Source of the DNA: Eubacteriales bacterium
GTDB taxonomy: Bacteria > Bacillota > Clostridia > Saccharofermentanales > DTU023
Length of the DNA stretch: 44,312 nucleotides
Reading direction: 5' to 3'
Assembly: GCA_030537595.1 (NCBI GenBank)
Contig: JAUNVR010000014.1
Span: forward strand, 1-44,312
Numbering within the stretch: position 1 is the first letter of the stretch; each line of letters starts with the position of its first letter. Made by a program: the position numbers and the translations under genes. Below the pieces are notes generated by a model. It did not search any database. It saw only the letters and a list, made by a program, of their open reading frames with translations, and was not told where the DNA came from. Positions 36,947 to 43,257 of the stretch are shown here, piece after piece.

Positions 36947-36975
36947 TAAGTACTAGCAATCTAAATCTTAAGTAT

Positions 36976-37013
36976 AAAAAATGCTTTCAACTAAGCTTGA
37001 AAGCATTTTCTTT
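36976..37013. terminator. Bidirectional terminator between lysC and the deacetylase-like gene
   Basis: A 13-bp perfect stem, AAAATGCTTTCAA (36978-36990) with TTGAAAGCATTTT (36997-37009), has a 6-base loop. T-rich tracts follow on both strands, so it can end lysC (+) and the convergent gene at 37025 (-). Confidence 0.85.
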
Positions 37014-37024
37014 GAGCAGAATAT

Positions 37025-38914
37025 TTACTTACGTACATCGTGATCTAGAATGTCAACTCCGTTAAAAATCTCAGACAAACCCCAGGCATCGGCTGCAGCT
37101 AAACTATCCGGTGAAACTGTCTGCCGATCCAGGTGGACAAAGGAATCGAAGTAGTAGTTATAGGGCTTGGGTCCCATGCCGATTAAGAGCTGGTAACCCT
37201 GATTTAAAACTACATCCAAGGCAGCACTATCTGAGTAGACGTGGCCACCTTCCGGAAAAAGCAAAATTTTTACAGGCTCACTTAGATTTAACTGATCAAT
37301 TAGGCCCTGCCAGCGCCACAGCTCCTGCTGCAACTCCGTTGGAGTCAATCGATTGTAGAGCTCCGTGCCGAGTCCTGCCGAAGCCAAATCGTAACCCTTG
37401 CGTTCTAAAGCCAAAAGTAGTTCCCTGACTTTCGTCTGCTCTAGTGCATAATCCTCATTGTCCATAACATAAGGCATTAAAGACTGTTTTTTCCTGGCTT
37501 CATTTTGATTTTCCAACATAGTTTCGTCCAAAATATAGCCGAGGGCATCTTCCCTCAGATAAAGAGCAAGAATTGCCCTTGCCCCATCAAAGGAGAACTG
37601 TGGATGCTCTGCGATATACTCCTCTAAAATCCCGATAAAGTTATTCTCCGGATCTAGGACATCACGATTTTTATCCTTATAAAAACCTTGAATCTCTTGA
37701 TTTGAATTTAAAATCAGCTTCTGCACCGTACCGTTTGCCTGATTTAAGGTGCTGTATGCAGCGTTTTCAAGCAGGAGGATTAAGGGCTTTTTACCACGGG
37801 GAACAATGATCTCCGGCTCAGATTTAGGATAATTGAAAAATAATGATGGGCGAATCAAAACATAGTTTTGCTCCTCCATCGTGGCCAAAAACTTCCTAAA
37901 TTCATCAGTTGTCAGTAAGTTGTGCTGGGCGTGCTGGGTATTGCTCTCAGCTCTAAAAGCCAAATCTGGGCGGGCAATTAGAGGTCTAATTGCTAAGACA
38001 GGAACTGGATCAATCCAACGCTCCAGCTTTTCTGGCAGATATGAGTTCAGGCGCTCCAGACTTTCCTGCAATTCTGGGCGCTCCGGAAAAACACTGTGCA
38101 TCCGATCAATTAGCTTGCGAGCACTGTAATAGCGCTGCCTCTCCTCTAAATCAGCTGCATGGGCCAGAAGATTCGTATACTCTGTCTCCTGGTACTCCTT
38201 TAACCTGAACTCTGCATATTCCCTGGCAAATATCGCCAGCTCCGGATCATCGACAATGTCCTGCCAATACTGCCAGGTCCGCTCCCAATTGCCCTCAGCC
38301 TGGATTTCTTTGGCCGTCTTAAAGCGATAGCCCGCCTGTTCTAAAGCAGGCAGTTGCTTGCGCAAGTCATTGACCATTCGCTCGAGATTGCTCAAACCTT
38401 GGAAGGCGTCAATTAGGCTGAGCCACTGCTCTTTACTAATCTTCCCATCCAGCCAGTCTTCACTCTTCTCGTAAATTAAGGGCATTATTTCCACAGCAGA
38501 AATATCTCGCATGCCTTCGATGAAATTGCGCTCACTTTCAGTCGGTGCATGACCTCGTAAAACAGCCTCGCAAATTTCACTAACCCGCTGACTAACAATC
38601 TCCTCCATAGCTAGTTGTACTTCACGATATTCAGAATTACTTTGTGGCTTCGCCTCGGTATCCGCAGCAGCAGCTTGGATCTCGCGGTAAAGCTCAGTCG
38701 CGCTATCGTAGTCTTCAGCCTCTAAGGCCGCAGTAAATTGATTCAGGCGACCTGTTGTCTGGCGCTTGTGACGGCTTTTAAGAACTCCGAATGCGATTAG
38801 CGAGAGCAGGATAATTACGCCCACTGCGATAATCAGTTTGCGATACTTTTTCTGGACCGTATCACCACGGTAAATATTGTAGTCTTTACGTTCTAAACGC
38901 AGTCTTTCGCGCAT
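37025..38914 (-). CDS. Membrane-anchored polysaccharide-deacetylase-like protein, catalytic residues apparently lost
   Basis: A 629-residue protein with one N-terminal membrane helix (about 27-45; short positive cytoplasmic stretch before it), then a helical, TPR-like extracytoplasmic region (50-295) and a C-terminal domain (about 303-625). That domain follows the order of a Firmicutes polysaccharide deacetylase family: PVLAIRPLI, TTDEFRKFLATMEEQNY, KKPLILLLENAAYS, EEYIAEHPQFSFDGARAILA and RKGYDLASAGLG. Where active members have an FDD motif and a His-x-x-x-His site, this one has LLEN and no histidines, so metal binding is probably lost. It starts four bases after parC, with AGGAG eleven bases before the ATG. 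Function is unknown; a wall-binding or scaffold role is a guess. Confidence 0.65.
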   Translation of the reverse strand: MRERLRLERKDYNIYRGDTVQKKYRKLIIAVGVIILLSLIAFGVLKSRHKRQTTGRLNQFTAALEAEDYDSATELYREIQAAAADTEAKPQSNSEYREVQLAMEEIVSQRVSEICEAVLRGHAPTESERNFIEGMRDISAVEIMPLIYEKSEDWLDGKISKEQWLSLIDAFQGLSNLERMVNDLRKQLPALEQAGYRFKTAKEIQAEGNWERTWQYWQDIVDDPELAIFAREYAEFRLKEYQETEYTNLLAHAADLEERQRYYSARKLIDRMHSVFPERPELQESLERLNSYLPEKLERWIDPVPVLAIRPLIARPDLAFRAESNTQHAQHNLLTTDEFRKFLATMEEQNYVLIRPSLFFNYPKSEPEIIVPRGKKPLILLLENAAYSTLNQANGTVQKLILNSNQEIQGFYKDKNRDVLDPENNFIGILEEYIAEHPQFSFDGARAILALYLREDALGYILDETMLENQNEARKKQSLMPYVMDNEDYALEQTKVRELLLALERKGYDLASAGLGTELYNRLTPTELQQELWRWQGLIDQLNLSEPVKILLFPEGGHVYSDSAALDVVLNQGYQLLIGMGPKPYNYYFDSFVHLDRQTVSPDSLAAADAWGLSEIFNGVDILDHDVRK

Positions 38915-38917
38915 TAG

Positions 38918-41173
38918 CTAGTTTTCTCCTGCGAGCTTATCAAAGCTTAATTGCTTATCAATGATGGTCTCATCTTTCACAAAACGTCCAGCCGCCGGCA
39001 ATGTCCTAATCCGGTAATATTCTTGCTCTTCTGTCTTTAGTCCCAGCTCCTCTGGCTCCAAGATAGCATTGAGCTGATAACCCTTGCGCTGCGACATAAT
39101 TTTAGCACCACGCGAGCTTCTTGTAGACATTAAGGGAATTAGGTCGCTATCGAGTAGAATTAATCTATCCTGAGTATTATGGAAGCAGATATCGCCATTT
39201 CCCTCAGCTTCTTCAACCCACTTTAGACCGACTAACTCAGCCTTATCGTAGAAGGCACGGACCAGCTTCTTGCGTTTTGTTTTAGTCTGGTATTGCTCCA
39301 AGGCAATTTTGACCGCCCGGCCATCAGCAAAGGCTAAAATCAAGAAGCCCTTAAAGTCCTCATCTGTCGCGTGGAAGAATAAGACTTCCTCATCTTCATC
39401 TAGCTCTAGAGTGTGGGCTAGGAAGGCTCCAAACTCTGATGGTTTATGGTCTTCCAGCTCATAGCCAAAGAGCTTGTAGACCTGAGCCTTATTTGTGAAG
39501 AATAAAAGCTCAGATTTATTAGCGCCCTCTTCTTCGGCAATAATCCGATCGCCTTCTTTTAACTTCAGCTCGCCAGCCGAGCGCAGCGAAGTCAGGGCAA
39601 TCTTTTTGAAATAGCCCTCAGCACTGAGGAAGTATTTCACATTGTAGTCATTGATCAGCTCTTCCTTGCTGAGGCTAGTGACCTTATTTGGTGAAATCAA
39701 TTCTGTCTTTCTGTCGATCGCATATTTCTTCCGATAATGCTTTAATTCTGCAGCAATTTCCGACCGTAAAAGCTTCGAGCTTGCAATCACCCGCTCCAGC
39801 TTGGAAATTCGCTTTTCTAATTCCGAGATTTCAGCAACTCTACGCAGCAAATACTCACGGTTCAAATGTCTCAATTTGATCTCTGCTACGTATTCTGCCT
39901 GCCTTTCATCAAGCTTAAAAGCAGCTTGCAGATTCGGCACAACTTCTGCTTCTTTTTCTGTCCTGCGGATAATCTTAATCGCCTCGTCGATATCTAAAAG
40001 GATCAGCTCCAAAGCCTTTAGCAAATGCAGTTGATCGCGCAGCTTATTCAGCTCAAAACTCCGCTGACGCTTGATTGTAGATTCACGCCAGTCTAACCAC
40101 TCTAGGAGCACATCGCGCACGGACATGACCTGCGGGCGGTAGTCAATCAGCAAATTAAGGTTCAAAGAAAATGAGGACTCCATTGAAGTCAGGTTATAGA
40201 GCTTTTGGATTAAAAACTCCGGATCCGCTGAGGCCTTATATTCAATTGCTATCTTCAAGCCATTTAAATCAGTTTCATCACGGACATCTGTGACTTCCTT
40301 CAAACTACCCTTACGCACCTGATTCGTAATATCTTCAATGATATTCTCGACTCTAGTTGTGTATGGAATTTCGTAAACCTCAATTAAGCGTGATTTAGGA
40401 ATCAGGCGATGCTTCGCCCGAAGGTGGAAGCTCCCTCGACCTGTTTCATAAATCTTTTGCATCTTCTCCGGCTCGTAGACTAATCGACCACCAGTCGGGA
40501 AGTCTGGAGCTGGCATGTAGTCAATTATTTTAGCCTCCGGGTCAGCAATTAAAGCTAATGTAGCATCGAGCAATTCTCCCAGATTAAATGAACAGATATT
40601 TGAAGCCATGCCAACCGCAATACCCTGAGTATTGTTCAAAAGGATTGTCGGTACCTGAACTGGCAAGAGAGTTGGTTCCTTAAAGGTGCCAGAGTAATTG
40701 TCGACGAAATCTACTGCGTCCTGATTAATGCCTTCAAAGAGAAGCTCACAAGCAGGGTCTAGTCTGGCCTCGGTATAGCGATATGCTGCGTACTGCATAT
40801 CCCGCGAGTAAATCCGGCCAAAGTTTCCTTTAGAATCAATCCAGGGTTGCAGCAAGGCTCCGTTACCTCGCGTCATCCTGACCATAGTCTCATAAATAGC
40901 CTGGTCACCATGGGGATGTAAAGCCATGGTCTGACCGACAATATCTGCAGATTTTGCGCGCGGGCCCTTACTCAGACCCATCTTATACATTGTGTAAAGT
41001 AGCTTGCGGTGAGATGGTTTGAAGCCATCAATCTCGGGCAAGGCGCGGGAGACAATGACCGACATCGCATAAGGCATATAGTTTTCCTTAATGCTGTCTG
41101 TTATTGCTCTAATTTCTGGCTCCAATTCAGTCTGGACAGGTGGTTTTTTTGGGCTTTTACTTTTCTTACTCAT
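38918..41173 (-). CDS. parC: DNA topoisomerase IV-like subunit A (type IIA)
   Basis: Cleaves and rejoins both DNA strands. The 751-residue protein has the winged-helix region with HPHGDQAIYETMVRM, the catalytic Arg-Tyr pair R132-Y133 (AAYRYTEARL) and GNFGRI. A coiled coil and a C-terminal domain follow. The gyrase box QRRGGKG is absent, so it is topo IV-like rather than GyrA. At the positions of E. coli GyrA Ser83 and Asp87 it has Gln91 and Glu95. The start overlaps the parE stop by one base. The canonical gyrase is presumably elsewhere. A Lys/Pro-rich N-terminus is unusual but short. Confidence 0.9.
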   Translation of the reverse strand: MSKKSKSPKKPPVQTELEPEIRAITDSIKENYMPYAMSVIVSRALPEIDGFKPSHRKLLYTMYKMGLSKGPRAKSADIVGQTMALHPHGDQAIYETMVRMTRGNGALLQPWIDSKGNFGRIYSRDMQYAAYRYTEARLDPACELLFEGINQDAVDFVDNYSGTFKEPTLLPVQVPTILLNNTQGIAVGMASNICSFNLGELLDATLALIADPEAKIIDYMPAPDFPTGGRLVYEPEKMQKIYETGRGSFHLRAKHRLIPKSRLIEVYEIPYTTRVENIIEDITNQVRKGSLKEVTDVRDETDLNGLKIAIEYKASADPEFLIQKLYNLTSMESSFSLNLNLLIDYRPQVMSVRDVLLEWLDWRESTIKRQRSFELNKLRDQLHLLKALELILLDIDEAIKIIRRTEKEAEVVPNLQAAFKLDERQAEYVAEIKLRHLNREYLLRRVAEISELEKRISKLERVIASSKLLRSEIAAELKHYRKKYAIDRKTELISPNKVTSLSKEELINDYNVKYFLSAEGYFKKIALTSLRSAGELKLKEGDRIIAEEEGANKSELLFFTNKAQVYKLFGYELEDHKPSEFGAFLAHTLELDEDEEVLFFHATDEDFKGFLILAFADGRAVKIALEQYQTKTKRKKLVRAFYDKAELVGLKWVEEAEGNGDICFHNTQDRLILLDSDLIPLMSTRSSRGAKIMSQRKGYQLNAILEPEELGLKTEEQEYYRIRTLPAAGRFVKDETIIDKQLSFDKLAGEN

Positions 41174-43185
41174 TAAATAGCCTCCAGCATTTCCAGATAA
41201 TCTGAACCAAATTCAGCAATATAATCTTTGCGCCCTTGTAGGTCATCTCCCAACAAGAGATCAAAGGTCTCTTTAGTCACTACTTCATCCTCGGGCAAAA
41301 GTTGAATCAGGCGTCTAGAGGCAGGGTTCATAGTCGTCTCCCACATCATCTCGGGTTCGTTTTCACCCAAGCCTTTAGAGCGTTGTATATGTACTTTCTT
41401 GTGCTCCCCTATCAGCTTCATAAATTCCTGTTTTTCCTGTTCTGAATAGGCAAAATATGTCCGATCCTTGCCCTTTTCAATATAGCTTAATTCGAAAAGC
41501 GGAGATTCAGCAATGTAGACTTTACCAGCAGTAATTAAGGATGGGGTCAAGCGATAGAGCATCGCTAGAATTAAGGTTCTAATCTGGAAGCCGTCAACAT
41601 CAGCATCTGTACAAATAATTATCTTTGACCAGCGCAGCTGTTCAATATCAAAAGAATCCAACTTCGTATTATGCTTTGATTTAATCTCTACTCCACAGCC
41701 CAAAATCTTTAAGAGATCAACAATAATGTCATTTCTAAAAATTTGGTTTAAATCGGCTTTTAAGCAGTTTAAAATCTTTCCGCGAAGTGGAATTACAGCC
41801 TGGAACTCTGCATCTCGAGCCATTTTGACAGAGCCTAAGGCTGAATTACCTTCAACGATATAAAGCTCACGACGATTATTATCTTTACTGCGGCAGTCGA
41901 CAAAGTTTTTTACCCGGTTGAACATATTGTCCACATTTCCGGAAAGCTTCTTACGAATATTCACACGCTGCTTCTCGGCCTGTTCCCGGCTCCGCTTATT
42001 AACTAAAATCTGCTCGAGAACTCGCTCGCTCTCCAGCTTATTTTCAATAAACCAAACTGTTAGTTTTTCACGCAGAGTATCACTGATGAACTTCTGAATA
42101 AATCGGTTATTAATCGCCTTTTTCGTCTGATTCTCATACGAGGTAAAGGTTGAAAAGGAGGATAAAATTAGGACCAGTGAGTTTTCAATGTCCTGGAAGC
42201 TAACTTTACTTTCATTTGCCTTATACTTACCCCGTTCCTTTAATTCCTTATCGAAGACTGAAACAAAGGCCGAACGCACCGCACGGTCTGGTGAGCCCCC
42301 ATATTCGAGGAAGGAGGAGTTATGGTAGTACTCAATTGCTTGGCGGTCACGGCAATAGCAATAGGCCAGTTCGAATTTGACCTTGTAGGAAGGTTTATCA
42401 TCACGATCCTTGCCTCTACCCTCTGCTGTAAAGTAAGAAATCTCAGACAGCAGATCCTGCTCAGCAATTTCCGCGACATGCCCCTTAATCCCATCGGGAT
42501 AGACGATGTCCTCGCAGCTCTTCTCAGCTCCACGCTCATCACAGAGTCTAAAGGTTACGCCACGATTTACAATCGCTTGCTTTTTTAAGGTCTCCTGAAA
42601 AAACTCCAAGGGAATATCTATTTCAGTGAAAACATCGAGGTCCGGGCGCCATCTTTGCCGGGTCCCAGTCTTACGTTTTTTAGATTCCTCTTTCTTTAAA
42701 CCACCAATGTTCTCGCCACGCTCGAACTCTAGTTGGTAGGTATAGCCATCACGATTTACCTCAACCTCGAAAAACTCGGAGGCATACTGAGTTGCACATG
42801 CACCTAAACCATTTAAGCCTAAGCTGAAGCCATATGACTCGCCTTCATTCGTGCGATATTTTCCACCAGCATACAATTCACAGTAAACTAGCTCCCAGTT
42901 GTATCGCTCTTCTGCGCGATTCCAGTCCAAAGGAATACCACGCCCGAAATCTTCAATTTCAATCACGCTGTTTGGCAGGAGTCTGATGATAATCGTATCA
43001 CCAAAGCCCTCTCTAGCCTCGTCTATTGAATTTGAGAGAATCTCGAAAAAAGCATGTTTACACCCGTTAAGATCATCTGAACCAAAAATAACCGAGGGTC
43101 TTAAACGAACCCGATCGGCTCCCTTTAACGAGGAAATACTTTCATTATCATAACTGTCACGAACTCGGCGCTTGCCTTCTGCCAT
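41173..43185 (-). CDS. parE: DNA topoisomerase IV-like subunit B (type IIA)
   Basis: The ATPase/TOPRIM partner of ParC. The GHKL part has E48 and N52 (FFEILSNSIDEA), EDFGRGIP and SLGLNGLGAC, a variant of the usual GLHGVG lid. The TOPRIM part has E445 in VEGNSALGS, where the common form is EGDSAGGS, and D527-x-D529 in CTDADVDG, so the catalytic acids are present. PLRGKIL replaces the usual PLKGKIL. The ATG at 43185 follows GGAGG by nine bases; a GTG at 43194 is too close to it. The 670-residue length is near that of E. coli ParE (630). It is the first gene of parE-parC-deacetylase-like. Confidence 0.92.
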   Translation of the reverse strand: MAEGKRRVRDSYDNESISSLKGADRVRLRPSVIFGSDDLNGCKHAFFEILSNSIDEAREGFGDTIIIRLLPNSVIEIEDFGRGIPLDWNRAEERYNWELVYCELYAGGKYRTNEGESYGFSLGLNGLGACATQYASEFFEVEVNRDGYTYQLEFERGENIGGLKKEESKKRKTGTRQRWRPDLDVFTEIDIPLEFFQETLKKQAIVNRGVTFRLCDERGAEKSCEDIVYPDGIKGHVAEIAEQDLLSEISYFTAEGRGKDRDDKPSYKVKFELAYCYCRDRQAIEYYHNSSFLEYGGSPDRAVRSAFVSVFDKELKERGKYKANESKVSFQDIENSLVLILSSFSTFTSYENQTKKAINNRFIQKFISDTLREKLTVWFIENKLESERVLEQILVNKRSREQAEKQRVNIRKKLSGNVDNMFNRVKNFVDCRSKDNNRRELYIVEGNSALGSVKMARDAEFQAVIPLRGKILNCLKADLNQIFRNDIIVDLLKILGCGVEIKSKHNTKLDSFDIEQLRWSKIIICTDADVDGFQIRTLILAMLYRLTPSLITAGKVYIAESPLFELSYIEKGKDRTYFAYSEQEKQEFMKLIGEHKKVHIQRSKGLGENEPEMMWETTMNPASRRLIQLLPEDEVVTKETFDLLLGDDLQGRKDYIAEFGSDYLEMLEAI

Positions 43186-43228
43186 TAGGCACACCCTCCA
43201 TCTTCCTTTTATCTCTTAATCGGAGTCT

Positions 43229-43257
43229 ATTATACATCATGCTATTTAATTGATAAA
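43229..43257 (-). promoter_or_regulatory. Promoter of parE
   Basis: Minus-strand TATAAT (43234-43229) with TG directly before it, and TTTATC (43257-43252) 17 bases upstream as a weak -35 box. Transcription would begin about 37 bases before the parE ATG. Confidence 0.65.

Follow-up and report, generated by a model that had tools for sequence, protein, structure and literature searches.

Layout of the locus

The DNA analysed here, hereafter the window, is a stretch of 44,312 nucleotides (nt) covering contig JAUNVR010000014.1 of assembly GCA_030537595.1, from a Eubacteriales bacterium. Our subject is a gene on its minus strand (37025-38914, ATG start) for a protein of 629 amino acids (aa) with a membrane anchor, a TPR-like helical arm and a degenerate domain of the NodB2 deacetylase type, which we call the pseudo-NodB2 gene. 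It comes last in a run of three genes on that strand, in the order parE, parC, pseudo-NodB2. The parE-like gene (41173-43194, 673 aa) and the parC-like gene directly upstream of the pseudo-NodB2 gene (38918-41173, 751 aa) overlap by 1 nt, and a gap of only 3 nt separates the TAG of parC from the ATG of the pseudo-NodB2 gene, with an AGGAG placed 11 nt before this ATG, within the end of parC. Between the gene and the convergent lysC lies a hairpin with a U run (36965-37024, minus strand), a probable terminator (-17.2 kcal/mol, z -3.3, with 1 of 200 shuffles equally stable) that a simple terminator scan did not pick up. Shared with lysC, this hairpin could terminate transcription in both directions. 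The promoter-like site before parE (43229-43256, minus strand; TTATCA-16-TATAAT) is a consensus match only, at 10 of 12 positions, and sites of this kind were found 18 times against 12.6 expected, mildly above chance. An earlier reading of the window from its letters and open reading frames (the original prediction) had attached the gene to a parEC operon; the 3-nt gap behind parC and the hairpin behind the gene support that attachment, and the gene is probably the last of a parE-parC-X unit, co-transcribed with the topoisomerase pair.

Domain architecture and the catalytic site

Relatives were collected by a profile scan of named genomes, from which the best 80 of 144 were kept, and the linkage and residue counts given below describe this better-matching part of the family. 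The 80 loci belong to Saccharofermentans, Mageeibacillus and uncultured Clostridiales, a host group that we take to be the order Saccharofermentanales of GTDB (the order, below); NCBI taxonomy places Saccharofermentans and Mageeibacillus in Oscillospiraceae. Loci L001-L030, L031-L110 and L131-L148 stem partly from the same organisms, and their counts are not summed.

In the AlphaFold2 model and by its structural matches, residues 299-617 (37064-38020, minus strand) form a degenerate domain with the NodB/CE4 fold in its NodB2 topology. The model of the whole protein, built on an 81-row alignment, reached a predicted local distance difference test score (pLDDT) of 91.3. When its residues ~298-618 were superposed with VIA-align, the best match was PplD (6dq3, Z 18.0 over 221 residues at 3.5 Å), followed by the Bacillus anthracis deacetylase 6go1 (17.6), BA0330 (4v33, 17.3), PgaB (17.3), IcaB (4wcj, 17.0) and BpsB (14.1). 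Eight deacetylase entries thus lie at Z 17.0-18.0 and BpsB at 14.1, the next entries being a TPR match at 8.8 and another barrel at 8.6; rows such as GH57, heparan-sulfate deacetylase and allantoinase, at Z 7-9, were set aside as sharing barrel architecture only. Foldseek matched the model to deacetylases at E 1.8e-5, and a 30-row profile searched against the PDB likewise matched deacetylases, with a best E of 1.8e-4.

The single sequence is far less telling: no family of Pfam or NCBIfam reached its cut-off, and the PDB gave no relative. Its matches to VapC, ZipA and the like, which covered residues about 21-93 only, were rejected as below cut-off and off-topic. PF01522 did not reach its gathering score in the window protein and was weak in 7 of 30 members (best E 0.0064). 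The Polysacc_deac_1 cut-off (23.1 bits) was passed by five of the eight scanned proteins that were either relatives from elsewhere in the class or paralogues (one an order paralogue), so that an unbroken series of homologues links the window protein with true deacetylases. According to PMC10967932, the MT5 strand lies N-terminally in a NodB2 domain and the MT3 motif is of the type AYPYG, and PgaB, IcaB, BpsB and Bc0361/Ba0330 are classed there as NodB2. The same order is present here: the strand around RPLI (306-313) comes ahead of MT1, and its aligned counterpart in intact relatives reads xFFHxLI. The original prediction had read deacetylase motifs in order along the domain and had proposed structure prediction and superposition on NodB folds. 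The fold was predicted, with deacetylases at Z 14-18, and intact homologues show the same motif order, confirming that alignment instead of overturning it; we thus rejected the idea that the alignment was wrong.

Within this fold, the catalytic site has gone. The place of the MT5 catalytic histidine is held by R310 (37985-37987, minus strand), which across the 81 rows is R in 65, K in 14 and L in 2. The MT1 aspartate pair is replaced by E383-N384 ('LLEN'; 37763-37768, minus strand), with E in 62, D in 18 and N in 1 of the rows at 383 and D in 10 at 384; Asp at both positions together occurs in none of the 81. Where MT2 would supply its HxxxH metal ligands, the protein has A513-T517 (37364-37378, minus strand), and histidine stands at neither place (0/81 rows). 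What remains of MT3 is P554-x-G556 (37247-37255, minus strand), its P and G kept in 81/81. From these sequences, the metal site is lost in the parC-linked family, with all three catalytic histidines gone and the metal-binding Asp gone in 71 of 81 rows. The loss of the Asp pair (LLEN for FDD) and of the His site claimed from the window is therefore borne out over 81 rows, and it goes beyond that claim, for the third catalytic histidine, that of MT5, is also gone.

An acid is kept at 383 in 80 of the 81 rows and a base at 310 in 79, unlike positions 384, 513 and 517, which have no conserved replacement residue; Y387, T514, Y515, Y585 and D596 are conserved in 74 to 80 rows. In the NodB2 enzyme AaPgaB, the MT5 histidine and the catalytic MT1 aspartate share a second metal site (PMC10967932), and for this reason places 310 and 383 should lie close together. 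Because acid and base were both kept after the metal ligands had drifted, a salt bridge between base 310 and acid 383 probably takes the place of the metal; the conserved pair is observed in the alignment, and the contact between its two members is proposed.

Relatives from elsewhere in the class present a different picture. The full H-D-D-H-H set was compared over hand-picked rows (14 from the order, 33 from the class, two of the five paralogue loci and nine ordinary deacetylases) and was found in 26 of the 33 class relatives, in both paralogues read and in none of the 14 order rows. The MT5 histidine is present in 31/33 class relatives and both MT2 histidines in 32/33; among those lacking the full set, five have Asn for the second Asp, L188 differs at the first two places and L173 at three. 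The five with Asn for the metal-binding Asp ('VDN', 'FDN') and intact histidines (L169, L172, L175, L170 and L178) may represent more pseudoenzymes of a part-way kind, belonging to other families of the class.

The claimed membrane anchor is a single helix at residues about 25-46 (38777-38842, minus strand; hydropathy peak 3.1 at residues 27-45), found in 79 of the 81 order rows, the two rows without it being cut by contig ends. Lysine and arginine are more numerous before the helix than after it in 53 of these 79 rows, fewer in 8 and equal in 18, so the N-terminal tail of ~24 residues is probably cytosolic and the remainder outside the cell. A lipoprotein anchor was not found: there is no Cys in the first 110 residues and no lipobox with the membrane helix.

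Between anchor and barrel, residues 49-295 (38030-38770, minus strand) form a TPR-like arm that is all-helical in the AlphaFold2 model, as is the stretch 48-298 folded alone (pLDDT 93.5); an N-terminal Fn3 domain is accordingly absent from the model. Residues 245-295 superpose on a stretch of BepA at about 1.0 Å over 51 residues, which agrees with the TPR-like part suggested from the window, and the arm is helical beyond them; as a whole, its best structural match has Z 9.2 at 14.7 Å. Pfam TPR_19 matched 15 of 30 members weakly when E values up to 1 were admitted, the best being 3.8e-4. Because the arm alone had no Foldseek match at E < 0.001 and only middling Z values, no partner can be named from it.

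Distribution, linkage and descent

When 59 genomes, the window's own and those of relatives, were searched for the protein, 54 had a match at E <= 0.001, several of them fragments; a scan of genome contigs with the single protein found no relative. Outside the order, ~34 genomes matched at E under 1e-20, of which 31 were fetched, and the best class relative matched the profile at E 1e-107. Some class relatives also carry the helical arm.

The position behind parC is fixed within the order. In all 78 loci that could be judged (80 fetched, two beginning at contig ends), the parC frame ends within 50 nt upstream on the same strand; of the first 30 loci, 28 agree on this adjacency, one is cut and L030 has a 151-nt gap between the frames. 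On the other side, where 74 loci have 1.5 kb or more of downstream sequence, the convergent lysC lies within 200 nt in just 14 of them, so that adjacency to parC exceeds general synteny. Three genomes of the same order (G042, G050 and G055) keep parE and parC and have no copy behind parC: lysC follows parC directly in G055 and another gene does so in G042, and G050 has no family member there. A profile search of the three gave no match covering the NodB domain, only short N-terminal ones at E 5e-4 to 0.13. As these genomes keep parEC without the gene, the topoisomerase does not require it.

Around the class relatives fetched, no parC, parE, lysC or yqeG matched at E 1e-10 within the flanks covered, which reached no more than about 6 kb to either side, and the neighbours of class relatives and paralogues read by eye at 12 loci included no recognisable parC-like, wall or division partner. 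A few housekeeping neighbours recur: by eye we took those of L188, L189 and L190 to include an isocitrate-dehydrogenase-like gene and those of L165 and L180 a seryl-tRNA-synthetase-like gene. The original prediction had asked whether relatives keep the loss of catalytic residues and the parEC link; both hold inside one order and not beyond it, where the class relatives fetched are mostly intact and have no parC nearby.

Second copies occur as well. Five g2 genomes of the same family have a second, unlinked copy (L121-L125; frames of 507-530 aa), and in the two that were read, L121 and L123, the catalytic set is intact; these two, from the same genus, share both neighbours. In genome G418, two class relatives with intact sites lie in tandem (L182:5786-8881, plus strand; frames of 511 and 519 aa).

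Neither member of the window's topoisomerase pair passed a curated NCBIfam cut-off for ParC, ParE, GyrA or GyrB. The parC product scored 410 bits against 813 for parC_Gpos, 428 against 629 for parC_Gneg and 507 against 877 for GyrA, and the parE product 394 against 900 for ParE and 479 against 882 for GyrB. The window ParC keeps the YTEAR active-site region, and the patterns used for the GyrA box found none in it. The genome encodes elsewhere a GyrA (1139.6 bits against the cut-off of 877, 32% identical to the window ParC) and a second B-subunit gene. Gyrase as the main reading of the pair was rejected on account of this clear GyrA with its GyrA-box-like motifs; because GyrA and the second B subunit are accounted for elsewhere and no curated cut-off is reached, the window pair is best taken as a divergent second type IIA topoisomerase, which by elimination only is most naturally read as topoisomerase IV. 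The name parEC given to it originally thus holds for a conserved, divergent type IIA pair, and fails at the ParC and ParE cut-offs themselves. As an observation in its own right, the pair at 38918-43194, with open frames conserved across the order, its active-site region kept and scores far below all curated cut-offs, is a divergent type IIA topoisomerase lineage.

The pseudo-NodB2 gene is under strong purifying selection. Among 350 pairs at 72-98.5% identity, the 43 with a synonymous distance (dS) below 1.5 had a median ratio of nonsynonymous to synonymous change (dN/dS) of 0.052 and a maximum of 0.154. With this median, and all matches listed in the 59-genome search being free of stops, a decaying pseudogene was rejected. 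One order match of the class-wide profile search, L141, contains a TGA. The gene has nonetheless diverged further than parC and parE: the best segments of pseudo-NodB2 relatives share 23-35% identity with the window protein, against 45-61% for parC in 74 loci and, in 67 loci with long alignments, 59-68% for parE.

In a tree of 64 rows, the parC-linked rows form one clade (support 100/100) placed among intact relatives, and the likeliest history read from this tree is a single recruitment of the gene with a single loss of its site, at or close to the origin of the order. The tree was made from a first one of 69 rows by dropping the long rows L116 and L173 as well as L122, L198 and L199; seven near-copies of order rows and the shortened L022 stand outside both. 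Two features of the tree call for caution: the parC-linked clade is placed next to a group of intact relatives by a node supported at 74/94, and rooting on ordinary deacetylases brings long branches together. L173 (L173:5847-7073, plus strand, genome G248) has R at the MT5 place, both Asp residues and Asn at both histidine places, with no parC nearby. In the first tree it was the sister of the parC-linked rows, on a long branch with a Shimodaira-Hasegawa-like approximate likelihood ratio test (SH-aLRT) support of 85, and it could represent an intermediate stage or else a separate loss of the site.

Possible roles of the disarmed domain

Among known systems, the closest in kind are BA0330 and BA0331, membrane-attached putative deacetylases that bind peptidoglycan and stabilise the wall, were inactive on the substrates tried, and whose mutants are complemented by versions without the catalytic Asp (PMC4505593). 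With these two and Bc0361 the window protein shares the NodB2 fold (Z 17.3 to BA0330) and membrane attachment. BA0330 differs in keeping zinc and the catalytic motifs, and both are lipoproteins with Fn3 according to the same source, whereas here the metal site is missing, the anchor is a membrane helix and the arm is TPR-like. PgaB, IcaB, BpsB and PplD superpose best on the model (Z 14-18, some 200-230 residues); unlike the window protein, which lacks the catalytic residues, they are deacetylases by PDB titles or by PMC10967932. The clostridial NodB2 relatives (L190, L163 and L121, for example) share the domain and differ in being mostly intact, with no parC nearby.

SddA/YibQ (PF04748) resembles the present case in combining a deacetylase fold with an operon tie to a division factor, and its Agrobacterium homologue ATU2773 is zinc-less (PMC12440217). 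It belongs to another Pfam family, and PF04748 was not among the matches of the window protein up to E 10; SddA is, moreover, exported with a predicted signal and stands beside envC, not parC. The CE4 pseudoenzymes BA0150 (4M1B), EcCDA (2VYO) and BA3943 (7bkf, a pseudoenzyme by its PDB title) have a defective catalytic set, as here, and we know of no fixed operon partner for any of them. BA0150 and EcCDA are NodB1 proteins according to PMC10967932. In the part of the literature searched, from which subscription papers were mostly absent, we found no deacetylase-like gene behind parC. The window protein would join the CE4 pseudoenzymes as a disarmed NodB2 domain with a TPR-like arm, fixed behind parEC.

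On balance, we lean towards reading the protein as a non-catalytic wall-binding or scaffold relative of NodB2-type deacetylases. A single membrane helix would leave a short tail inside and all else outside, as its sequence suggests; the TPR-like arm would reach outward and carry the barrel without its metal site, in which conserved acid 383 and base 310 would pair as a salt bridge where the metal used to sit. By analogy with BA0330/BA0331, the barrel most likely docks on wall glycan or a wall enzyme, serving as a membrane-to-wall scaffold. The protein would be made when the topoisomerase is made, as the product of the last gene of the parE-parC-X unit, and no direct action on the topoisomerase would be needed. 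Several points weigh against this picture. The analogy behind the proposed wall binding is one of fold and place only: BA0330 retains its zinc and carries a lipid anchor together with an Fn3 domain. A weak metal site may also persist in a few members, given D383 in 18 and D384 in 10 of the 81 rows, and Asp at both places in loci L028 and L030 of the separate 30-row set, which nonetheless have Q/R at the histidine places.

How far the neighbourhood bears on function is a separate matter. The gene may quite possibly be an operon passenger with an envelope job of its own, having inherited a convenient site behind parC with no bearing on chromosome segregation. That would fit its absence from G042, G050 and G055 while parEC remain, the lack of parC near the class relatives fetched, the probable separation of ectodomain and topoisomerase in different compartments, and a divergence (23-35% identity) much faster than that of parC (45-61%) or parE (59-68%). 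What a passenger explains poorly is the contrast between 78/78 loci with parC adjacent and 14/74 with lysC, a hint that selection favours their joint expression or translational coupling. At the other extreme, a coupler whose cytosolic tail meets ParC/ParE while the disarmed barrel holds the complex to septal glycan, bringing decatenation to where the septum closes, would agree with the operon and the predicted topology; the tail is poorly conserved, and three genomes keep parEC without the gene. We give this idea very little weight. The wall-sensing or division link to decatenation put forward in the original prediction is not borne out, given these three losses and a folded part that the membrane probably separates from the topoisomerase.

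A regulator that docks on and gates a division amidase or similar hydrolase, as SddA/YibQ does beside envC, strikes us as unlikely. The TPR-like arm would suit protein docking, and in PMC12440217 SddA is a deacetylase fold in an operon with a division factor, across a 3-bp gap, with zinc-less ATU2773 still in the operon; yet SddA needs its own activity to inhibit amidases according to that paper, and neither a hydrolase gene nor a recognised division gene stands in the parE-parC-X operon. We find it quite improbable that the protein is an enzyme whose site was rebuilt for metal-free hydrolysis or transfer through acid 383 (80/81) and base 310 (79/81). The invariant P-x-G and the conserved Y387, T514, Y515, Y585 and D596 (in 74 to 80 of 81) would suit such an enzyme, but positions 384, 513 and 517 drift freely and an Arg-Glu pair would more often be structural. 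Pseudoenzymes commonly partner active paralogues, and the second copies in five g2 genomes, intact in the two read, would provide one for the disarmed protein to activate or compete with. The window's genome, however, is 96% complete and has no PF01522 match at E 0.001; among seven genomes searched at this threshold, only it (G000) and G042, which also lacks the gene, had none, and we consider such a partnership the least probable of these readings.

Whichever role applies, CE4 pseudoenzymes met in the literature are single proteins, whereas here the metal site is gone from a whole clade, conserved throughout an order of Clostridia, that has kept an acid-base pair. The intact sister proteins allow comparative testing of a non-enzymatic role for NodB2 domains in Gram-positive walls, and the fixed place of the gene behind a divergent topoisomerase pair raises the question of coupling between envelope and chromosome.

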